Translations under genes and position numbers: made by a program
The notes under the pieces: model-generated
Databases searched by the model: none
What the model saw: the letters and a program-made list of their open reading frames with translations, nothing else
Told to the model about the DNA's origin: nothing
Shown: one piece after another, positions 4,095 to 10,769 of the stretch
Layout of the letters: every line of letters starts with the position of its first letter
Position numbering within the stretch: position 1 is the first letter of the stretch
Source: Clostridia bacterium
GTDB lineage: Bacteria; Bacillota; Clostridia; UBA1381
DNA: 64,000 bases
Direction: 5' to 3'
Assembly: GCA_017551095.1 (NCBI GenBank)
Contig: JAFZMQ010000030.1
Span: forward strand, 62,001 to 126,000

Positions 4095-5762
4095 TTATTT
4101 GATTTTGTTTTCGTAATCCTCAATCATCTTCTTACTCATTTGACCTGTACGACTTCTAAGATTTTCAAGGTATTTTTCGCAGGTTTTTCCTGTAAAAATC
4201 TTGATTTCAAGCATAAGTCGGTCGTCATCCGGAGTAACAAAAATTTTGTCGATATACTTGTTTACAAACTCCTTTGATATAATTCCGTCCGCGGCATCTC
4301 TCTCTGCAATCCTTAATACATTGCGGATCTCATCTATGTGTTTTTTGAAATCCTCCTTGGAATTTTGCTGTTCCTGCAGTTCAAACAGTTCTTTTTCAAG
4401 TTTATCAATAGTTGACTTGCACTCACTGTTCATCTGAATATAATCCTCATCTGACAAATCTCCATTCAGATTATAATCGAGAATTTTGCGTTTTTTCTTC
4501 TGTTCATGCTCAATTTTAGCTTTCAGTTTTTCTATATCTTTAGTGAGCTCTTCATTTATGTCAATGCTCTTATACATTTCAATATATGATTCAACCAAAT
4601 CCTCGGCTATGGGGGAGGTTTCATTGAAAACATCAAAAAGAATGGGCTTGATTTCCTCTTCGTAAATTGCAAAAGACGGGCAGGAGTCGGTACCGTTATT
4701 GATTTTTCCACTGCATACCCATTTGCTGTTTTTGTTTCCCTGCCTGTCAATACTGTCGCGGCGGTAATATGCACGTCCGCAGTGAGTACAAAATAGCTTT
4801 CCCGTAAGCAAATTTGCATGATTGCAGATGTTTTGCCTGTTTTTTACATCTTTGCTCCGCCTTGAAAGAACGGTATTTGCCTCGTCCCAAAGCTCCTCGG
4901 TTACAATAGCAGGAACAATTTCGCCTGTTTCGTCTTTAAACATAACCCATTCCTCAGGCGGAAGGAAATGCTGTTTTTTTGTAAACATATCGACAACCTT
5001 TACCTTGTTGCCTACATAGTAGCCTTTGTATTTAGGATTGGAAATAGTGTTTGCCATTGTAGAATGTGCGATTTTGTTGCCGTTTCGGTTTCGGTAGCCT
5101 TTCTCCCAAAATAAGTCTTCAATTTGTTTCATACTGTATCTGTCGGTTGCATAAAGCTCAAAAAGCTCACGCACCATTTTCGCTTCATCTTCATTTATGA
5201 CCAGCTTTTTGTCCTTTTTATCATACCCGAAAATTCGGCTGTTACCAAGTACAACATGGTTTTTTATGGCCTGCTGATGCCCGAATTTTACTCTTGAGGA
5301 CAGCTTCCTGAGCTCGTCCTGTGCTATTGATGACATAATAGCAAGACGAAGCTCCGAGTCCTCATCTAATGTGTTTATATTATCATTTTGAAAAAATACA
5401 CCTACGCCGCTACTTAATAATTCTCTTGTGTACTTAATGCTGTCAAGCGTGTTTCTGGCAAAACGCGAAATCTCTTTTGTGATAATAAGGTCAAACAAAT
5501 CATTTTCGGCGTCGCGTATCATTTTATTAAAATTCTCGCGTTTAAAAGTGGATATTCCCGACAAACCTTCATCTATATATCCGGGAATATATGTCCATTT
5601 TGGGTTTTTCTTTATAAAGTCAGTATAGTAAGTAATCTGATTATCGAGAGAATTTAACTGCTCGTCCTTTTCAGAGGATACACGAGCATAAAAGGTCACT
5701 CTCATAGGTATATCATATATGGACTTTATTTTTAACTGTTCTCTGATCTGATGTATATTCAT
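4095..5762 (-). CDS. Large serine recombinase (resolvase/invertase family)
   Basis: A 555-residue protein. The N-terminal resolvase domain (about residues 20-170) carries YARVSS, with the catalytic serine near residue 29, and the conserved arginine-rich EISRFARN segment. A recombinase domain follows (about 175-300), then a zinc ribbon with CTHCG near 345 and later paired cysteines, and a long charged coiled coil (about 425-500). This is the layout of large serine integrases of phages and conjugative transposons. In this family the enzyme cuts and rejoins attachment sites through a serine-DNA intermediate. No conjugation genes or clear att sites are seen next to it, so it may be a leftover of a larger element or act on a nearby site. 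Confidence 0.92.
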   Translation of the reverse strand: MNIHQIREQLKIKSIYDIPMRVTFYARVSSEKDEQLNSLDNQITYYTDFIKKNPKWTYIPGYIDEGLSGISTFKRENFNKMIRDAENDLFDLIITKEISRFARNTLDSIKYTRELLSSGVGVFFQNDNINTLDEDSELRLAIMSSIAQDELRKLSSRVKFGHQQAIKNHVVLGNSRIFGYDKKDKKLVINEDEAKMVRELFELYATDRYSMKQIEDLFWEKGYRNRNGNKIAHSTMANTISNPKYKGYYVGNKVKVVDMFTKKQHFLPPEEWVMFKDETGEIVPAIVTEELWDEANTVLSRRSKDVKNRQNICNHANLLTGKLFCTHCGRAYYRRDSIDRQGNKNSKWVCSGKINNGTDSCPSFAIYEEEIKPILFDVFNETSPIAEDLVESYIEMYKSIDINEELTKDIEKLKAKIEHEQKKKRKILDYNLNGDLSDEDYIQMNSECKSTIDKLEKELFELQEQQNSKEDFKKHIDEIRNVLRIAERDAADGIISKEFVNKYIDKIFVTPDDDRLMLEIKIFTGKTCEKYLENLRSRTGQMSKKMIEDYENKIK

Positions 5763-5865
5763 AAAATCACCTCAAAATACATTGTATCATTATCATAATT
5801 ATATCATATAAAAAACGAAATCACAAGCGTTTGCATAAAGTTTCAAAAGGTAGATAATGGTAGAA

Positions 5866-5894
5866 TCCCCCAAGGAACTGAACTCCTTGAGGGA
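5866..5894. repeat. Inverted repeat between small ORF and recombinase
   Basis: An 11-base arm at 5866-5876 pairs with 5884-5894 with one mismatch around a 7-base loop, and four Ts follow on the plus strand. It could be a weak terminator, an attenuator or a recombinase binding site; the sequence does not decide. Confidence 0.4.
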
Positions 5895-5974
5895 TTTTGC
5901 CGTTATCTTCTGGTTTTAAATATCCCGTACCGAATCCATATATTCATAAACACAAAACGGAGCGGTACAGGATT

Positions 5975-6115
5975 CTATTTTCTATCAATCGAGCCATGAC
6001 ACCTTCTAAGTATCAAAGTGCTCATTTTGTTTTTCTCTTCTTTCGTAATTAACCCCTTATTAAGTAACACATCGTTGAAATAGCTTAACCATATTTCTTT
6101 TGCAACTGAGTTCAG
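5975..6115 (-). CDS. Small recombinase-associated protein (46 aa, probable CTG start)
   Basis: The frame is open back to a GTG at 6160, but the only good ribosome site, AAGGAGG (6131-6125 on the minus strand), lies 9 bases before a CTG at 6115, which begins LNSVAKEIWLSYFN. A GTG directly abutting the AAGGAGG is too close to be used. The C-terminal part (GLITKEEKNKM) resembles short helical proteins that often sit beside large serine recombinases in Firmicute elements; that resemblance is from memory and not verified. Either CTG is the true start or an original ATG was lost by mutation. The recombinase gene lies 212 bases downstream on the same strand. Confidence 0.45.
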   Translation of the reverse strand: MNSVAKEIWLSYFNDVLLNKGLITKEEKNKMSTLILRRCHGSIDRK

Positions 6116-6230
6116 CGGAATCACCCTCCTTTTTAATAGTTTTTGCAATAGTGCAGTCACATATGCATTTTATTAAAAAGGGGTATAATTACTCCTGTAA
6201 GAGAGATTTGCGATGAATGCCAATTTGCCG

Positions 6231-6352
6231 TATTTGATTAAAAACGGCGGGATAGCTCATGCTTATAATGCAAGACTACTCAGATGAATACACTTTATAC
6301 CCAATTCTGTCATTTTTAAAAACCATGAGCTTATCACCGCTTTTTTTGATTA
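6231..6352. repeat. Inverted-repeat element, copy 1 (MITE-like)
   Basis: The left arm (6231-6262) and right arm (6313-6352) are imperfect inverted repeats sharing the core GATAGCTCATG and its complement. The same layout, with matching arms and outer T-runs, recurs at 8246-8367. The rest of the non-coding stretch 6163-6538 shows nothing else I can name. Confidence 0.5.
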
Positions 6353-6538
6353 TGCTGCTTTAATATCGTTATTATGTATGAACAGCAATACGTTTTCTTG
6401 CCAATTTTTCCATGATATGCTTTTTTTGGTAATTAGCAGAATTAGTTTTACATTTTTTACTATCTCGTCCTCTTTTAAACCATGAATAATTAATTCTACA
6501 ATGACTGTGCTATAGTTCGTGCGGATAGCTTATTTCGT

Positions 6539-6739
6539 ATGGCGGCACATTCTACTTTTGATAGAATTATGGATAGGATTAAGAATAATTCGTATTTTAA
6601 GAATCAGTTGATTGAACTTATAGGAAACGCATATAAGGATAAGGGTTTTTTTGAGCCAAATGTTGAAATTCATGATATCAATGCTGAAATGCGGGAAATG
6701 TGTGGGGATGATATATTTGATAATCCTGTCGATGAATAA
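6539..6739 (+). CDS. Small hypothetical ORF, possibly a 3' gene remnant (66 aa)
   Basis: A 66-residue acidic ORF begins MAAHSTFDRIMDRI and ends DIFDNPVDE. No ribosome site precedes the ATG, and the frame is open a further 15 codons upstream to a TAA at 6491, which suggests the 3' end of a decayed gene. A strong hairpin terminator follows about 90 bases downstream on the same strand, consistent with a former transcription unit. No family recognised. Confidence 0.35.
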   Translation: MAAHSTFDRIMDRIKNNSYFKNQLIELIGNAYKDKGFFEPNVEIHDINAEMREMCGDDIFDNPVDE

Positions 6740-6826
6740 CATTCAAATCAAGGGAGTTTCCCTCTCCCGATAAAAAAATGAAATCAACAAAAGCCTTAAA
6801 AACAAGGAAATTCCTCACTTAAACTC

Positions 6827-6868
6827 AACACAACCACTTTTATTTTGCGGAAAGTGGTTGTGTTTTTG
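6827..6868 (+). terminator. Strong intrinsic terminator
   Basis: A perfect 14-base stem (6827-6840 with 6851-6864) with a 10-base loop is followed by a T-run on the plus strand. It insulates the ATPase promoter just downstream from upstream transcription. Confidence 0.75.
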
Positions 6869-6929
6869 TGCTATACTCGGAAATAAATTGTCGATTTTTG
6901 AAACTTTTTTCTCATTTCGGCAAAAACTA

Positions 6930-6958
6930 TTGACAAATTTGTTCTTTTACAGTAATAT
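6930..6958 (+). promoter_or_regulatory. Predicted sigma-A promoter of the first AAA ATPase gene
   Basis: TTGACA (6930-6935), 17-base spacer, TAATAT (6953-6958), about 27 bases before the ATG at 6985. Confidence 0.6.
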
Positions 6959-6984
6959 AAATTCAAAGAAAAGAGGTGCGGGAA

Positions 6985-8184
6985 ATGGTTCAAAGGAAAG
7001 AATACTTAGATAATTTAATAGCACTAAAAGATAAAAAGGTTATAAAGGTTATTACTGGTGTCAGAAGATGTGGTAAATCTACCTTGTTTGAGTTATATAT
7101 AGACTATTTGAAACAGTCGGGAGTTGAAGAAGGACAGATTATTTCAGTTAATCTTGAAGACCTTGAAAACTTTCATTTGATTGATTATCACGCGTTATAT
7201 GATTATATATCCGAAAAACTCACTCCCGATAAGAACAATTATATTTTCATTGATGAGGTTCAAAGGTGTAGTGGATTTGAAAAAGCGGTTGACAGCCTGT
7301 TTATAAAGAAGAACTGCGATGTTTATATTACGGGTTCTAATGCATATCTTTTATCGGGAGAGCTTGCGACACTTCTTTCCGGTAGATATATCCAAATTGA
7401 TATGTTGCCGTTCTCTTTTAAGGAATATTATGATGCAAAAAAAGAAAGCGGGAAGAGCAAAAGAGAACTTTTTGACAGCTATTTAAAATTTGGCTCTTTT
7501 CCGTATGTTGCATATCTTGATAATGACGAGAAGATTATAAATCAATATATAGAGGGAATCTATAATACAATATTACTAAAAGATGTTGCAATGAGGGAAA
7601 AGATAACAGATGTATCGGTACTGGAAAATATCTTAAAAACCGTTGCGTCAAGTATTGGCAGTCCTATTTCAGCCAAGAAAATAAGCGATACCTTAATATC
7701 AAGCGGAAGAAAAATCTCGCCAAATACAGTAGAAGCATATTTGCGGGCATTAACAGACAGTTATATTCTTTATAATGCTACAAGATACGATATTAAAGGT
7801 AAACAATTCTTAAAAACATTAGGAAAGTATTACTTTGTCGACAGTGGTATCAGAAATCATATAATAAGTGGATCCGCAAGTGATTTAGGACATATTCTTG
7901 AAAATGTAGTATATCTTGAACTTTTAAGACGGAAAAATAAAGTTAATATAGGTAAATTGGCTGAAAAAGAAGTAGATTTTGTAGCTGGTAATATGGGCGA
8001 GATTGAGTATTATCAGGTCTCTGCAAGCGTAATTGATGAAAAAACATTGGAGCGGGAATTAGCACCGCTAAAAGAAATAAAGGACAATTATCCTAAAACA
8101 ATTTTGACGCTTGACGATATCGGTAATGGAAAAAATTATGAGGGTATAAAACAGATAAATGTTATAGATTGGCTACTTGAATGA
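6985..8184 (+). CDS. AAA ATPase with DUF4143 domain (first copy)
   Basis: 399 residues from the ATG at 6985, which lies 8 bases after AGAGG; an in-frame GTG at 6976 overlaps that ribosome site and is unlikely. An N-terminal AAA_14-type P-loop domain carries GVRRCGKST (about residues 24-32), Walker B YIFIDEVQR and the sensor segment ITGSNAYLL. The C-terminal DUF4143 part ends in an EVDFVAG motif resembling PD-(D/E)xK-type active-site strands. Such proteins are common and often horizontally acquired in gut bacteria; their biological role is not established. The gene is monocistronic, with its own promoter, and lies between two copies of an inverted-repeat element. Confidence 0.9.
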   Translation: MVQRKEYLDNLIALKDKKVIKVITGVRRCGKSTLFELYIDYLKQSGVEEGQIISVNLEDLENFHLIDYHALYDYISEKLTPDKNNYIFIDEVQRCSGFEKAVDSLFIKKNCDVYITGSNAYLLSGELATLLSGRYIQIDMLPFSFKEYYDAKKESGKSKRELFDSYLKFGSFPYVAYLDNDEKIINQYIEGIYNTILLKDVAMREKITDVSVLENILKTVASSIGSPISAKKISDTLISSGRKISPNTVEAYLRALTDSYILYNATRYDIKGKQFLKTLGKYYFVDSGIRNHIISGSASDLGHILENVVYLELLRRKNKVNIGKLAEKEVDFVAGNMGEIEYYQVSASVIDEKTLERELAPLKEIKDNYPKTILTLDDIGNGKNYEGIKQINVIDWLLE

Positions 8185-8188
8185 TTCG

Positions 8189-8208
8189 GGGCAGGACTTT
8201 TCCTGCCC
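8189..8208 (+). terminator. Hairpin just after the first ATPase gene
   Basis: GGGCAGGA pairs perfectly with TCCTGCCC around a 4-base loop, starting 5 bases after the stop codon. Only a short, interrupted T-run follows, so termination strength is uncertain. Confidence 0.55.
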
Positions 8209-8245
8209 ACTTTCATTCTATTTCCGGTTTGTTACCATATCACAT

Positions 8246-8367
8246 ATTTGGTCAAAAATCGTGAGATAGCTCACGGTTTTTATTGAAACGTATCACCGGT
8301 AATATACTTCATGCTTAATAACACTACTTGCCAAAACCGTAAGCTATCTGGTACTTTTTTTACCAAA
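8246..8367. repeat. Inverted-repeat element, copy 2 (MITE-like)
   Basis: The left arm (8246-8280) begins TTTGGTCAAAAA and contains AGATAGCTCACGGTTTT. The right arm (8331-8367) is its near-exact inverted counterpart ending in ACCAAA. Length, arm order and core match copy 1 at 6231-6352. The left arm also contains a small internal hairpin (GTGAG-ATAG-CTCAC) followed by Ts that could act as a terminator. Confidence 0.6.
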
Positions 8368-8373
8368 ACGCCG

Positions 8374-8430
8374 TTATTCCTCTAATTTGTACCATATATA
8401 TAAGACAAGTAGCCAAAATATAAACCCCAT
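8374..8430 (-). CDS. Predicted 18-residue membrane micro-peptide
   Basis: A strong ribosome site, AAAGGAGG, lies 8 bases before an ATG at 8430. It opens an 18-codon frame (MGFIFWLLVLYIWYKLEE) that starts 18 bases after the DUF2958 stop codon. The peptide is a single hydrophobic helix with a charged tail. It is below normal gene-calling limits, but the ribosome-site spacing is ideal. Confidence 0.45.
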   Translation of the reverse strand: MGFIFWLLVLYIWYKLEE

Positions 8431-8448
8431 AAAACCTACCTCCTTTAT

Positions 8449-8760
8449 TCAGCCATTGTTTCGCCCGATGATATCTGTTATCTTAGTGCCGTATTTCAGG
8501 TATAAATCCCTCTCAATATAGCCAACAGATTCAAGCTCTGAGAGAGTTATATATCCCCATTCCCAACAGAAGATATGACAGTATCCAAAGAATAGCCAGT
8601 CACCGTCATCTTGCTTTTCACCCTCTGTTATGAGCCATGTTCCTCTGCCAAAGGGATTGAAGTATTTAACTACAATCGTAGCATCCTTGCCTTTTCCGTC
8701 TTGGCTATACAATGGGTATCCCTTGAACTTTTCAGCTAATTCTCTTGTCATCAGTTTCAT
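8449..8760 (-). CDS. DUF2958 domain-containing protein
   Basis: 103 residues from the ATG at 8760, which has AAAGGAG 8 bases upstream. The frame extends further upstream, but that part is hydrophobic, poorly conserved-looking and lacks a ribosome site. The body matches the DUF2958 pattern: N-terminal KLMTRELAEKF, then EGEKQDDGDWLFFGYC and LSELESVGYIERDLYL. Members are usually found on plasmids and conjugative elements and have no assigned biochemical function. Its presence supports the view that 3.9-10.3 kb is accessory DNA. Confidence 0.85.
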   Translation of the reverse strand: MKLMTRELAEKFKGYPLYSQDGKGKDATIVVKYFNPFGRGTWLITEGEKQDDGDWLFFGYCHIFCWEWGYITLSELESVGYIERDLYLKYGTKITDIIGRNNG

Positions 8761-8977
8761 AACATCATCTCCTTTACACATCCACATCACAGTACATTGC
8801 GAGCTTTTCATCATATCTATACGGCAGTCCTTCATAACTGAAAGCATTTGCTGGGATAATATAAAATATCCAAATGTATTCGTAGTAAAATAAACTATTG
8901 TTACCCAAATTATAATCAAAAATGTAGTTTTTCAAAAATATTAGTGCAAAAATGCGGGAATGTTTTCATAAAAACCA

Positions 8978-9006
8978 TTGATTTTTACAGGAAAGTGTGG
9001 TAAAAT
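8978..9006 (+). promoter_or_regulatory. Predicted sigma-A promoter of the second AAA ATPase gene
   Basis: TTGATT (8978-8983), 17-base spacer, TAAAAT (9001-9006), about 31 bases before the GTG at 9038. It lies inside the longest open frame and so argues for the later start. Confidence 0.55.
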
Positions 9007-9037
9007 ACCATTAGATTATAAAGGGCAGGTGATTTTG

Positions 9038-10333
9038 GTGCAAAGAAAAATAATGGATTTCTTAAAAAAATGGAAAGAGAATCCGCACAGGAAACCGCTG
9101 ATTTTGCAAGGGGCAAGGCAGGTCGGAAAAACATATTCGCTTTTGGAATTCGGAAGAACCTGCTATGAGAATGTTGCGTATTTCAATTTTGAAACAACTC
9201 CGAAACTTGCCTCCATATTTGAGGAAAATGTAAGTCCTGATTATTTAATACCTATACTGTCGCATTTTGCAGGGCAGACAATCATAAAGGAAAAAACGCT
9301 TATCATATTTGATGAGGTGCAAAAATGCGAAAGGGCTCTGACATCGCTAAAATACTTTTGCGAAGAGGCACCCGAATACCATATAGCAGTAGCAGGAAGT
9401 CTTTTGGGAATTGCAGTGAACAGGGAGGAGTTTTCATTTCCCGTCGGCAAGGTTGATATAAAGACAATGTATCCTATGGATATGGAGGAATTTTTGTTAG
9501 CACTTGGCAAAGACGATTTGATTAAGCGTATTAAAGAATGTTTTGACACAAACTCCCCAATGCCTGAAATTCTTCACGAAGAGGCTATGAATTTATACAG
9601 GCAATACCTTGTTGTCGGAGGAATGCCCGAATGTGTGATGAAATTTGCCGAGACAAAGGATTACATTCTCATAAGACATACACAGGATATGATTTTAGAA
9701 GGCTATCTTGATGATATGAGTAAGTATAACAATAAAAACGAAATAAAGAAAACACGGCTTACTTACGACAATGTTACGGTACAGCTTTCAAAGAAAAATA
9801 CAAGGTTCCAGTATAAGCTTATAAAAAAAGGTGCAAGAGCGGCAGAATTTGAAAATGCGGTTGAATGGCTGACATTATCGGGTATAGTGTCGCAGGTTTA
9901 TAAGATTGAACAAGTCAAAAAGCCTTTGGAAAACTATCGTGATATTGATGCTTTCAAAATTTATGTGTCCGATGTCGGTCTTTTATGTGCAAAAAAGGAC
10001 TTGATACCGCAGGATGTTCTATATATGTCTGATGAACTGAATGATTTTAAAGGCGGAATGACAGAAAATTATGTAAATTCACAGCTTATATTAGGCGGTT
10101 ATAAGACATATTACTGGATGACGGAACGGGGTGCGGAGGTGGACTTCGTTATACAAAAAGACGGCGATATTATACCGATAGAGGTTAAAAGTGCCGATAA
10201 TACAAAAGCAAAAAGCCTTAATATGTATATCAAGGCTTATAAGCCAAAGTATGCGATAAAGCTCTCTGCAAAGAATTTCGGATTTGAAGATGGGAAGAAA
10301 ACTGTACCGCTTTATGCTACTTTCTGCATTTAA
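9038..10333 (+). CDS. AAA ATPase with DUF4143 domain (second copy)
   Basis: 431 residues from a GTG at 9038, six bases after AGGTG; the frame is open to 8978, but that part coincides with a promoter. The family start typically reads (M)QRKIMDFLKKWK, as here. Walker A is LQGARQVGKTY, Walker B is LIIFDEVQK, and the C-terminal DUF4143 part ends with a GAEVDFVIQK...IEVKS nuclease-like strand pair. It belongs to a different subfamily from the 6985 gene (GARQVGKT against GVRRCGKS), so it is not a recent duplicate. Monocistronic, closed by a terminator it shares with the convergent spore protein gene. Role unknown. Confidence 0.9.
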   Translation: MQRKIMDFLKKWKENPHRKPLILQGARQVGKTYSLLEFGRTCYENVAYFNFETTPKLASIFEENVSPDYLIPILSHFAGQTIIKEKTLIIFDEVQKCERALTSLKYFCEEAPEYHIAVAGSLLGIAVNREEFSFPVGKVDIKTMYPMDMEEFLLALGKDDLIKRIKECFDTNSPMPEILHEEAMNLYRQYLVVGGMPECVMKFAETKDYILIRHTQDMILEGYLDDMSKYNNKNEIKKTRLTYDNVTVQLSKKNTRFQYKLIKKGARAAEFENAVEWLTLSGIVSQVYKIEQVKKPLENYRDIDAFKIYVSDVGLLCAKKDLIPQDVLYMSDELNDFKGGMTENYVNSQLILGGYKTYYWMTERGAEVDFVIQKDGDIIPIEVKSADNTKAKSLNMYIKAYKPKYAIKLSAKNFGFEDGKKTVPLYATFCI

Positions 10334-10340
10334 GTTAAGA

Positions 10341-10369
10341 AAATCAGTGCTAAAAGCACTGATTTTTTG
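10341..10369. terminator. Bidirectional terminator between the ATPase and spore protein genes
   Basis: A perfect 11-base stem (10341-10351 with 10355-10365) with a 3-base loop, followed by Ts on the plus strand and a shorter T-run on the minus strand. It sits between two convergent stop codons. Confidence 0.8.
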
Positions 10370-10372
10370 CGT

Positions 10373-10627
10373 TTATATTACTATTCTATACTCATACCCA
10401 ATCCTTGCAATATGCCCATCAAGAGAGCGGTTATTACGGGTAAAAAATCTTGTTCGCACGGGACAGATGTTATTGACCATTTGGCCGCCAACAGAGCCGG
10501 CTTGTCTTGAAGTTAAGTCACCGTTGTAACCTTGCTTCAAATCAACTCCGACTTCACGGGCAGCTTCCATCTTGAAGTTGTCCATTGCCTGCTTTGCCTC
10601 AGGCACGTTGATCTTTGATCTGCTCAT
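10373..10627 (-). CDS. Alpha/beta-type small acid-soluble spore protein (SASP), extended C-terminus
   Basis: 84 residues from the ATG at 10627, with GGAGG 8 bases upstream. Residues 1-50 match the alpha/beta SASP core closely: VPEAKQAMDNFKMEAAREVG, then DLTSRQAGSVGGQMV. In the family these proteins coat DNA in the dormant spore and are made in the forespore. The GPR protease cleavage region is usually near EAAREVG, which is present. Family members normally end within about ten residues of GGQMV; here a basic 33-residue tail continues (NNICPVRTRFF onward), possibly the result of an old frameshift. This is the clearest sign that the organism sporulates. Confidence 0.85.
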   Translation of the reverse strand: MSRSKINVPEAKQAMDNFKMEAAREVGVDLKQGYNGDLTSRQAGSVGGQMVNNICPVRTRFFTRNNRSLDGHIARIGYEYRIVI

Positions 10628-10769
10628 TGTTTCTTCCTCCAACATTCTCTATTTATATAAAGCAATCGCAATAAAAGCGATTACAGGCTTATTTTTTGAT
10701 ATTAGTCGTAAATTATTACAAAAATATTTTTCCAATTTTTTAAATAACGCAATTCGCCGTAAAAAAGCA

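Follow-up and report, generated by a model that had tools for sequence, protein, structure and literature searches.

The window analysed here, a 64,000-nucleotide stretch of DNA from a Clostridia bacterium, carries an integrated island that interrupts an alpha/beta SASP spore-protein gene in its 3' end. Two inverted-repeat elements, E1 and E2, each occupy an intergenic gap of this 6341-bp island, and it was these, together with the AAA ATPase gene between them, that an initial annotation made from the sequence had singled out. The features of the locus, in window positions, are as follows.

4095-4133, minus strand: the SASP gene's displaced 3' end, which now terminates the recombinase gene.
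4095-5762, minus strand: large serine recombinase (Resolvase, Recombinase and Zn_ribbon_recom), whose C-terminal 12 residues are encoded by SASP-gene sequence.
4100-4175, no strand: attL region, with an inferred 2-base core TT at 4132-4133, from comparison of attL, attR and the empty sites.
4134-10474, no strand: integrated island, 6341 bp, carrying both hairpins; its joined flanks match empty sites.
5975-6160, minus strand: ORF of 61 amino acids; relatives of it lie close to other recombinase or SASP-junction loci.
6231-6352, no strand: E1, an imperfect, non-coding palindrome of about 117-122 bp with its conserved core at 6231-6347.
6539-6739, plus strand: ORF66, an orphan ORF of 66 amino acids between E1 and the ATPase gene, with no relative found in the collections searched.
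6901-6958, plus strand: promoter-like region of the ATPase gene, with TTGACA (6930) and TAATAT (ending at 6958) and a palindrome ahead of them that is conserved in relatives.
6985-8184, plus strand: ATPase 1 (AAA_14 and DUF4143); the ORF is listed from a GTG at 6976, and relatives align to the ATG at 6985.
8245-8367, no strand: E2, a diverged second copy in the same orientation as E1.
8449-8919, minus strand: DUF2958 protein, from the protein-family scan.
8978-10333, plus strand: ATPase 2 (DUF4143 and AAA_14), outside the hairpin bracket.
10440-10515, no strand: attR region, with an inferred core TT at 10473-10474, from the same comparison.
10475-10645, minus strand: 5' part of the alpha/beta SASP gene, whose frame now enters island DNA (10373-10474).

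E1 and E2 are homologous. In an ungapped sliding comparison over 921,476 positions from 39 sources, both strands included, the best match of the E1 core (6231-6347) outside itself is 8245-8361, with 69 of 117 bases identical against 55 for the runner-up, which bears out the two inverted-repeat stretches where the initial annotation had placed them; the reverse query gives 68, again with a runner-up of 55. Their gapped local alignment scores 32 under lenient settings, where shuffles reach at most 22 (0 of 500 as high), and 28 under strict ones (1 of 500 as high). Compared with 110 other hairpin windows, the lenient score is at best 27.5 for E1 and 21.5 for E2, and the partner of E1 at 27.5 is a hairpin at locus L076 that appears to be an unrelated terminator. 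Random pairs among the hairpin windows score at least 32 in 13 of 5791 cases, and the eight of these that were listed all pair related loci. As the copies are oriented alike and their spacers can be aligned, the similarity extends beyond the arms. By blastn, E2 is absent from the matches of E1 at E<=1, and E2 as query finds itself alone in its own genome at E<=0.01.

The description of the pair as diverged copies that each fold on themselves and have no coding capacity also stands. No stop-free stretch exceeds 32 codons in any frame, and the folding z-scores on the plus strand are -4.93 for E1 and -3.73 for E2, with 0 of 200 shuffles as good for either; on the minus strand they are -2.63 (5 of 200 shuffles as good) and -4.04 (1 of 200). 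The four arms each match GATAGCTCAYGGTTTT with at most three mismatches and are spaced 68 bases apart in both elements, and arm identities of 24/30 in E1 and 29/36 in E2 provide the terminal inverted repeats expected of a MITE. A gapped inverted-repeat scan of the 64-kb window puts E2 on top (score 20), followed by two others at 17, with E1 among five at 16. All 17 consensus pairs are kept in both elements, three of them with changes on both sides, against pairing of only 44-53% in slid controls, and the covariation obtained from these two sequences does not reach significance (73 of 500 shuffles score at least as high). Arm scores within an element (16 and 20) are hardly higher than those between elements (12, 13, 18 and 19), and so make no case for selection on pairing.

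Further copies were sought with R1, a covariance model of the E1/E2 pair, and R2, a four-row model built from four strands. R1 found the pair only, whether in 70 family genomes (own genome plus 69), in 391 class genomes (own genome plus 390) or, at a looser setting, in 16 chosen genomes (own included); these draws overlap, and the filters of the larger runs were stricter and so miss weak matches. It gave a single match, at E 1.9, in nine viral recombinase loci, and E1 had no match in plasmids. The matches of R2 in eight congeners, at most 28.5 bits, are judged to be noise because, of those viewed, L128 looks coding and L126 and L127 look like plain terminators; in 32 fetched loci its best match has 26.1 bits (L062, a hairpin just upstream of the ATPase gene), followed by one of 26.0 (L110). 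In the own genome, which is 80.66% complete, the arm pattern at up to three mismatches matched 56 times and its reversed control 55 times, so there is no genome-wide repeat family; the search of this genome and its relatives for the arm sequence that the initial annotation had proposed turned up no third copy. An exact two-arm pattern found E2 alone in 398 phylum genomes, a weak test in that the pattern misses E1 in its own genome, and a longer version, likewise weak, had 0 matches in viral contigs. The exact arm pattern matched seven times in viral contigs, in no case with a visible partner arm, and E2 in 41 genomes (own plus 40 relatives) matched, besides itself, one 26-base loop sequence in G027, which we judge to be chance and which by eye lies inside an AraC-type gene. 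The initial annotation had staked its case on further copies, which were not found in the samples searched, and on an alignment of the two elements above chance, which they have.

Ranked close behind the reading of E1 and E2 as cis-acting hairpins, and plausible without being favoured, is that they are functionless remnants of a MITE family. Two insertions, into the island or its ancestor, would then have been made by a transposase of which nothing was seen here. Size, inverted-repeat ends, a homologous spacer, intergenic places and the lack of coding capacity all fit, and a MITE family may be down to one copy per genome (PMC10969869). Against this, no third copy turned up in the own genome (1.37 Mb) or the other genomes searched: rather than being dispersed, the two copies lie 2 kb apart with none elsewhere in these samples. 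No target duplication shared by E1 and E2 was seen by eye, and the 8-base direct repeat TTTGATTA at the ends of E1 makes a poor one, its left copy lying (by eye) within the stretch homologous to E2, where the match in E2 runs in inverted rather than direct orientation. As short, non-coding, intergenic inverted repeats that fold in transcripts, E1 and E2 resemble the RUP, SPRITE and BOX repeats of Streptococcus pneumoniae, of which SPRITE elements are named rho-independent terminator-like (PMC10969869); unlike these, they occur as two copies only, in one island, with no shared target duplication seen and no family in the samples.

The initial annotation had also suggested that the position of the elements on both sides of the ATPase gene could reflect joint movement. 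The bracket is real but loosely drawn, with 632 bases from the end of E1 to the ATPase start (6985); the orphan 66-codon ORF and a terminator-like site lie in that gap. ORF66 was found in its own genome only among 391 class genomes and had no match in plasmids; neither it nor the DUF2958 protein had a relative in viral contigs, and a single phage record matched, covering 7% of the query and confined to its DUF2958 part. For ATPase 1, genome contigs yielded 12 relatives at 84-89% identity and 5 more at 52-64%, and a viral contig yielded one at 89%. Across the 13 close loci (12 genome contigs and the viral contig), DNA similarity starts at 6875-6905 and ends at 8172-8187; the common unit is the ATPase gene with about 100 bases upstream. 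Gene neighbourhoods are unlike between most ATPase loci, and R1 had no convincing match in the 18 loci, the best, at 24.1 bits, being a different hairpin (L049). Within the genus, three of eight other genomes match the stretch 5770-8960, only in the ATPase gene, just upstream of it or in the 61-amino-acid ORF. Because the ATPase gene is shared with its promoter but without the hairpins, gene and promoter have a history independent of E1 and E2, and the suggestion of joint movement is not supported by the close relatives, which share only about 6880-8186. A gene flanked by hairpins is not thereby shown to move with them, tempting as that reading is.

The same evidence bears on the least probable of the readings weighed, in which E1, ORF66, the ATPase gene and E2 form a mobile cassette with the hairpins as recombination or transposition ends, be it an integron cassette or a composite MITE. 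Two copies in the same orientation do flank the gene, and in L048 the ATPase gene is also bracketed by a direct repeat of about 110 bp, of different sequence. However, the unit shared by the 13 close relatives stops near 6880 and 8186, with E1 and E2 not found there, and in a flanking-repeat test only L048 and L054 among 18 other ATPase loci beat all 60 shuffles, the repeat in L054 being by eye two similar flanking genes; for the window itself, 8 of 60 shuffles were as high in this lenient 800-base test, which is a weak one. Integron attC sites need RYYYAAC and GTTRRRY boxes, and neither box occurs on either strand of E1 or E2. No integron integrase is among the seven proteins scanned, and the island recombinase is a serine enzyme.

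The inserted unit that can be demonstrated is the whole island. Joined at 4133/10475, the window matches two same-genus genomes, with 405 of 469 aligned columns identical to the G005 locus and 390 of 468 to the G002 locus, and its SASP frame is open. Since the joined flanks match these empty sites (L109 and L091), the island spans 4134-10474, or 6341 bp; the empty sites that the initial annotation had advised looking for, along with target duplications, thus exist for the island, and none was found for either hairpin by itself. Its recombinase gene lies inside an element that splits a gene and is bounded by att sites that can be rejoined, as in gene-intervening elements. By the insertion, the recombinase and SASP genes have exchanged their 3' ends. 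A separate match of 44-51 bases to the recombinase gene's 3' end (4095-4145) occurs in 18 of 95 order genomes, counted from the places listed, and in the two such loci that were read an alpha/beta SASP gene ends in this match. A SASP-like tail also ends six other recombinase loci (the SASP genes of their genomes were checked in part), four of which (L071, L112, L113 and L115) encode recombinases 80-87% identical to that of the island and two (L119 and L120) recombinases 45-47% identical, so the SASP target looks recurrent. The altered SASP tail of the window is found again in G034 and G005 and is, on the simplest reading, the recombinase's own original C-terminus, left by the exchange. The own genome, at 80.66% completeness, has one SASP match only, cut short (2-49 of 59); SASP matches occur in seven of nine genus genomes, and G005 has one full and one cut. 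We infer that insertion of the whole island at the SASP 3' end was the work of the large serine recombinase, which can also excise it.

In our judgement, this island, a recombinase element with precise bounds inside a spore-protein gene, for which two congeners have the empty site, is of more interest than the hairpin pair. It resembles the sporulation gene-intervening elements SP-beta in spsM, skin in sigK, vfbin in spoVFB, gin in gerE and yin in yabG (described in PMC8270828, PMC5595907 and PMC10747680) in that it interrupts a sporulation gene and encodes a large serine recombinase, and its removal in silico rejoins the SASP gene. As gin illustrates, such elements need not be phages (PMC5595907). 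Further marks of such elements are regulated excision in sporulation and a directionality factor. The island differs in its target, a SASP gene, and in being 6.3 kb only. The terms 'small acid' and 'ssp' are absent from the main texts of PMC5595907 and PMC10747680, and the part of PMC8270828 available names a SASP gene solely as cargo of SP-beta. That review was the only hit for SASP with serine recombinase, integration and excision, and nothing linking SASP with mobile elements was found; our literature collection is limited, so we do not claim that the target is unpublished. According to PMC8270828, sspC is a forespore gene; excision in the forespore would remove the island from the spore, and forespore expression of SASP genes argues against a simple skin-like life style.

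Two further observations concern loci near other SASP junctions. In G005, an interrupted SASP gene (L118, on contig C75) stands beside another P-loop ATPase ORF and a relative of the 61-amino-acid ORF, with relaxase- and MobC-like ORFs recognised by eye; this locus may be a mobilizable relative of the island whose ATPase slot is occupied by another ATPase. In L110 (9715-10828), close to the SASP junction of G034, a Rep-like ORF adjoins a stem-loop with TAATACTA in its loop that by eye resembles a rolling-circle origin.

Also weighed, and very unlikely in our view, is the reading that the hairpins are cis sites for replication or transfer of the island, such as a single-strand origin, an oriT-like site or a partition site. 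Single-strand origins are typically long imperfect palindromes, and the possibly related G005 element, with its relaxase- and MobC-like ORFs, and the Rep-like ORF of G034, all by eye, count in its favour. Yet the seven window proteins scanned include no relaxase or Rep, the G005 and G034 stretches gave no R1 match, and the best R2 match there (26.0 bits, L110) overlaps the terminator of the 61-amino-acid ORF.

We favour, tentatively and at somewhat below even odds, E1 and E2 as putative cis-acting hairpins that terminate or insulate and descend from a single palindromic repeat. That repeat would have given rise to both by a MITE- or REP-like insertion that occurred twice or by duplication of one copy, and the hairpins would act, if at all, in cis, as a terminator or insulator for transcripts from both sides. 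Both elements are laid out as an outer A-run, a stem, a loop of about 50 bases and a T-run; ordinary intrinsic terminators have far shorter loops. The left arm of E2 (8254-8281) is a palindrome on its own and, on the minus strand, alone shows the traits of an intrinsic terminator (G+C stem, short loop, T-run): the terminator scan returned one site in the elements, there, for leftward transcripts (8275-8260), and none on either strand of E1 or on the plus strand of E2. Rfam had 0 matches above the gathering score in the window. A terminator at E2 makes sense, as the element lies between the convergent ATPase and DUF2958 genes; it makes less sense at E1, whose gap is divergent, with a leftward gene on one side and a rightward one on the other, and needs none. 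The ATPase gene may have reached the island separately, bringing its own promoter. If the recombinase moves the whole island at the SASP 3' end, hairpins and ATPase gene would travel together as passengers only.

A more inclusive scheme, which we consider rather unlikely as it stands, would make the island a SASP-intervening element: its recombinase clade would home to alpha/beta SASP 3' ends and exchange 3' ends at each insertion, so that both C-termini would differ between the integrated and circular states, the 61-amino-acid ORF would be the directionality factor, and E1 and E2 would be paired cis hairpins insulating a cargo gene from neighbouring modules. The 61-amino-acid ORF is in any case a candidate directionality factor.

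Both island ATPases match the two Pfam families AAA_14 and DUF4143; no published account of the mobility of such genes, nor any publication on DUF4143 with mobility or Clostridia, was found in our limited literature collection. Beside the -35 box of ATPase 1 lies a palindrome of the form AGTTTTTTCTCAnnTGAGnAAAAACT (6901-6935), which is also present upstream of the ATPase gene in L048-L059, L061, L062 and L065. It is conserved with some decay in an alignment of 16 loci (L060, L063 and L064 left out), remains recognisable in both Selenomonas loci and is a candidate operator for autoregulation of the ATPase gene. Other repeats occur around related genes. The ATPase gene of L048 is flanked by a nearly identical direct repeat of about 110 bp (~4690-4870 and 6215-6380), unrelated to E1 and E2; one near-perfect hairpin with a stem of about 20 bp lies upstream of the gene in L049 (4727-4787) and in L050 (3074-3133); and in L064 (2740-2884) three tandem palindromes resembling AAAGTTTTTGG...CCAAAAACTTT precede a distant ATPase relative.
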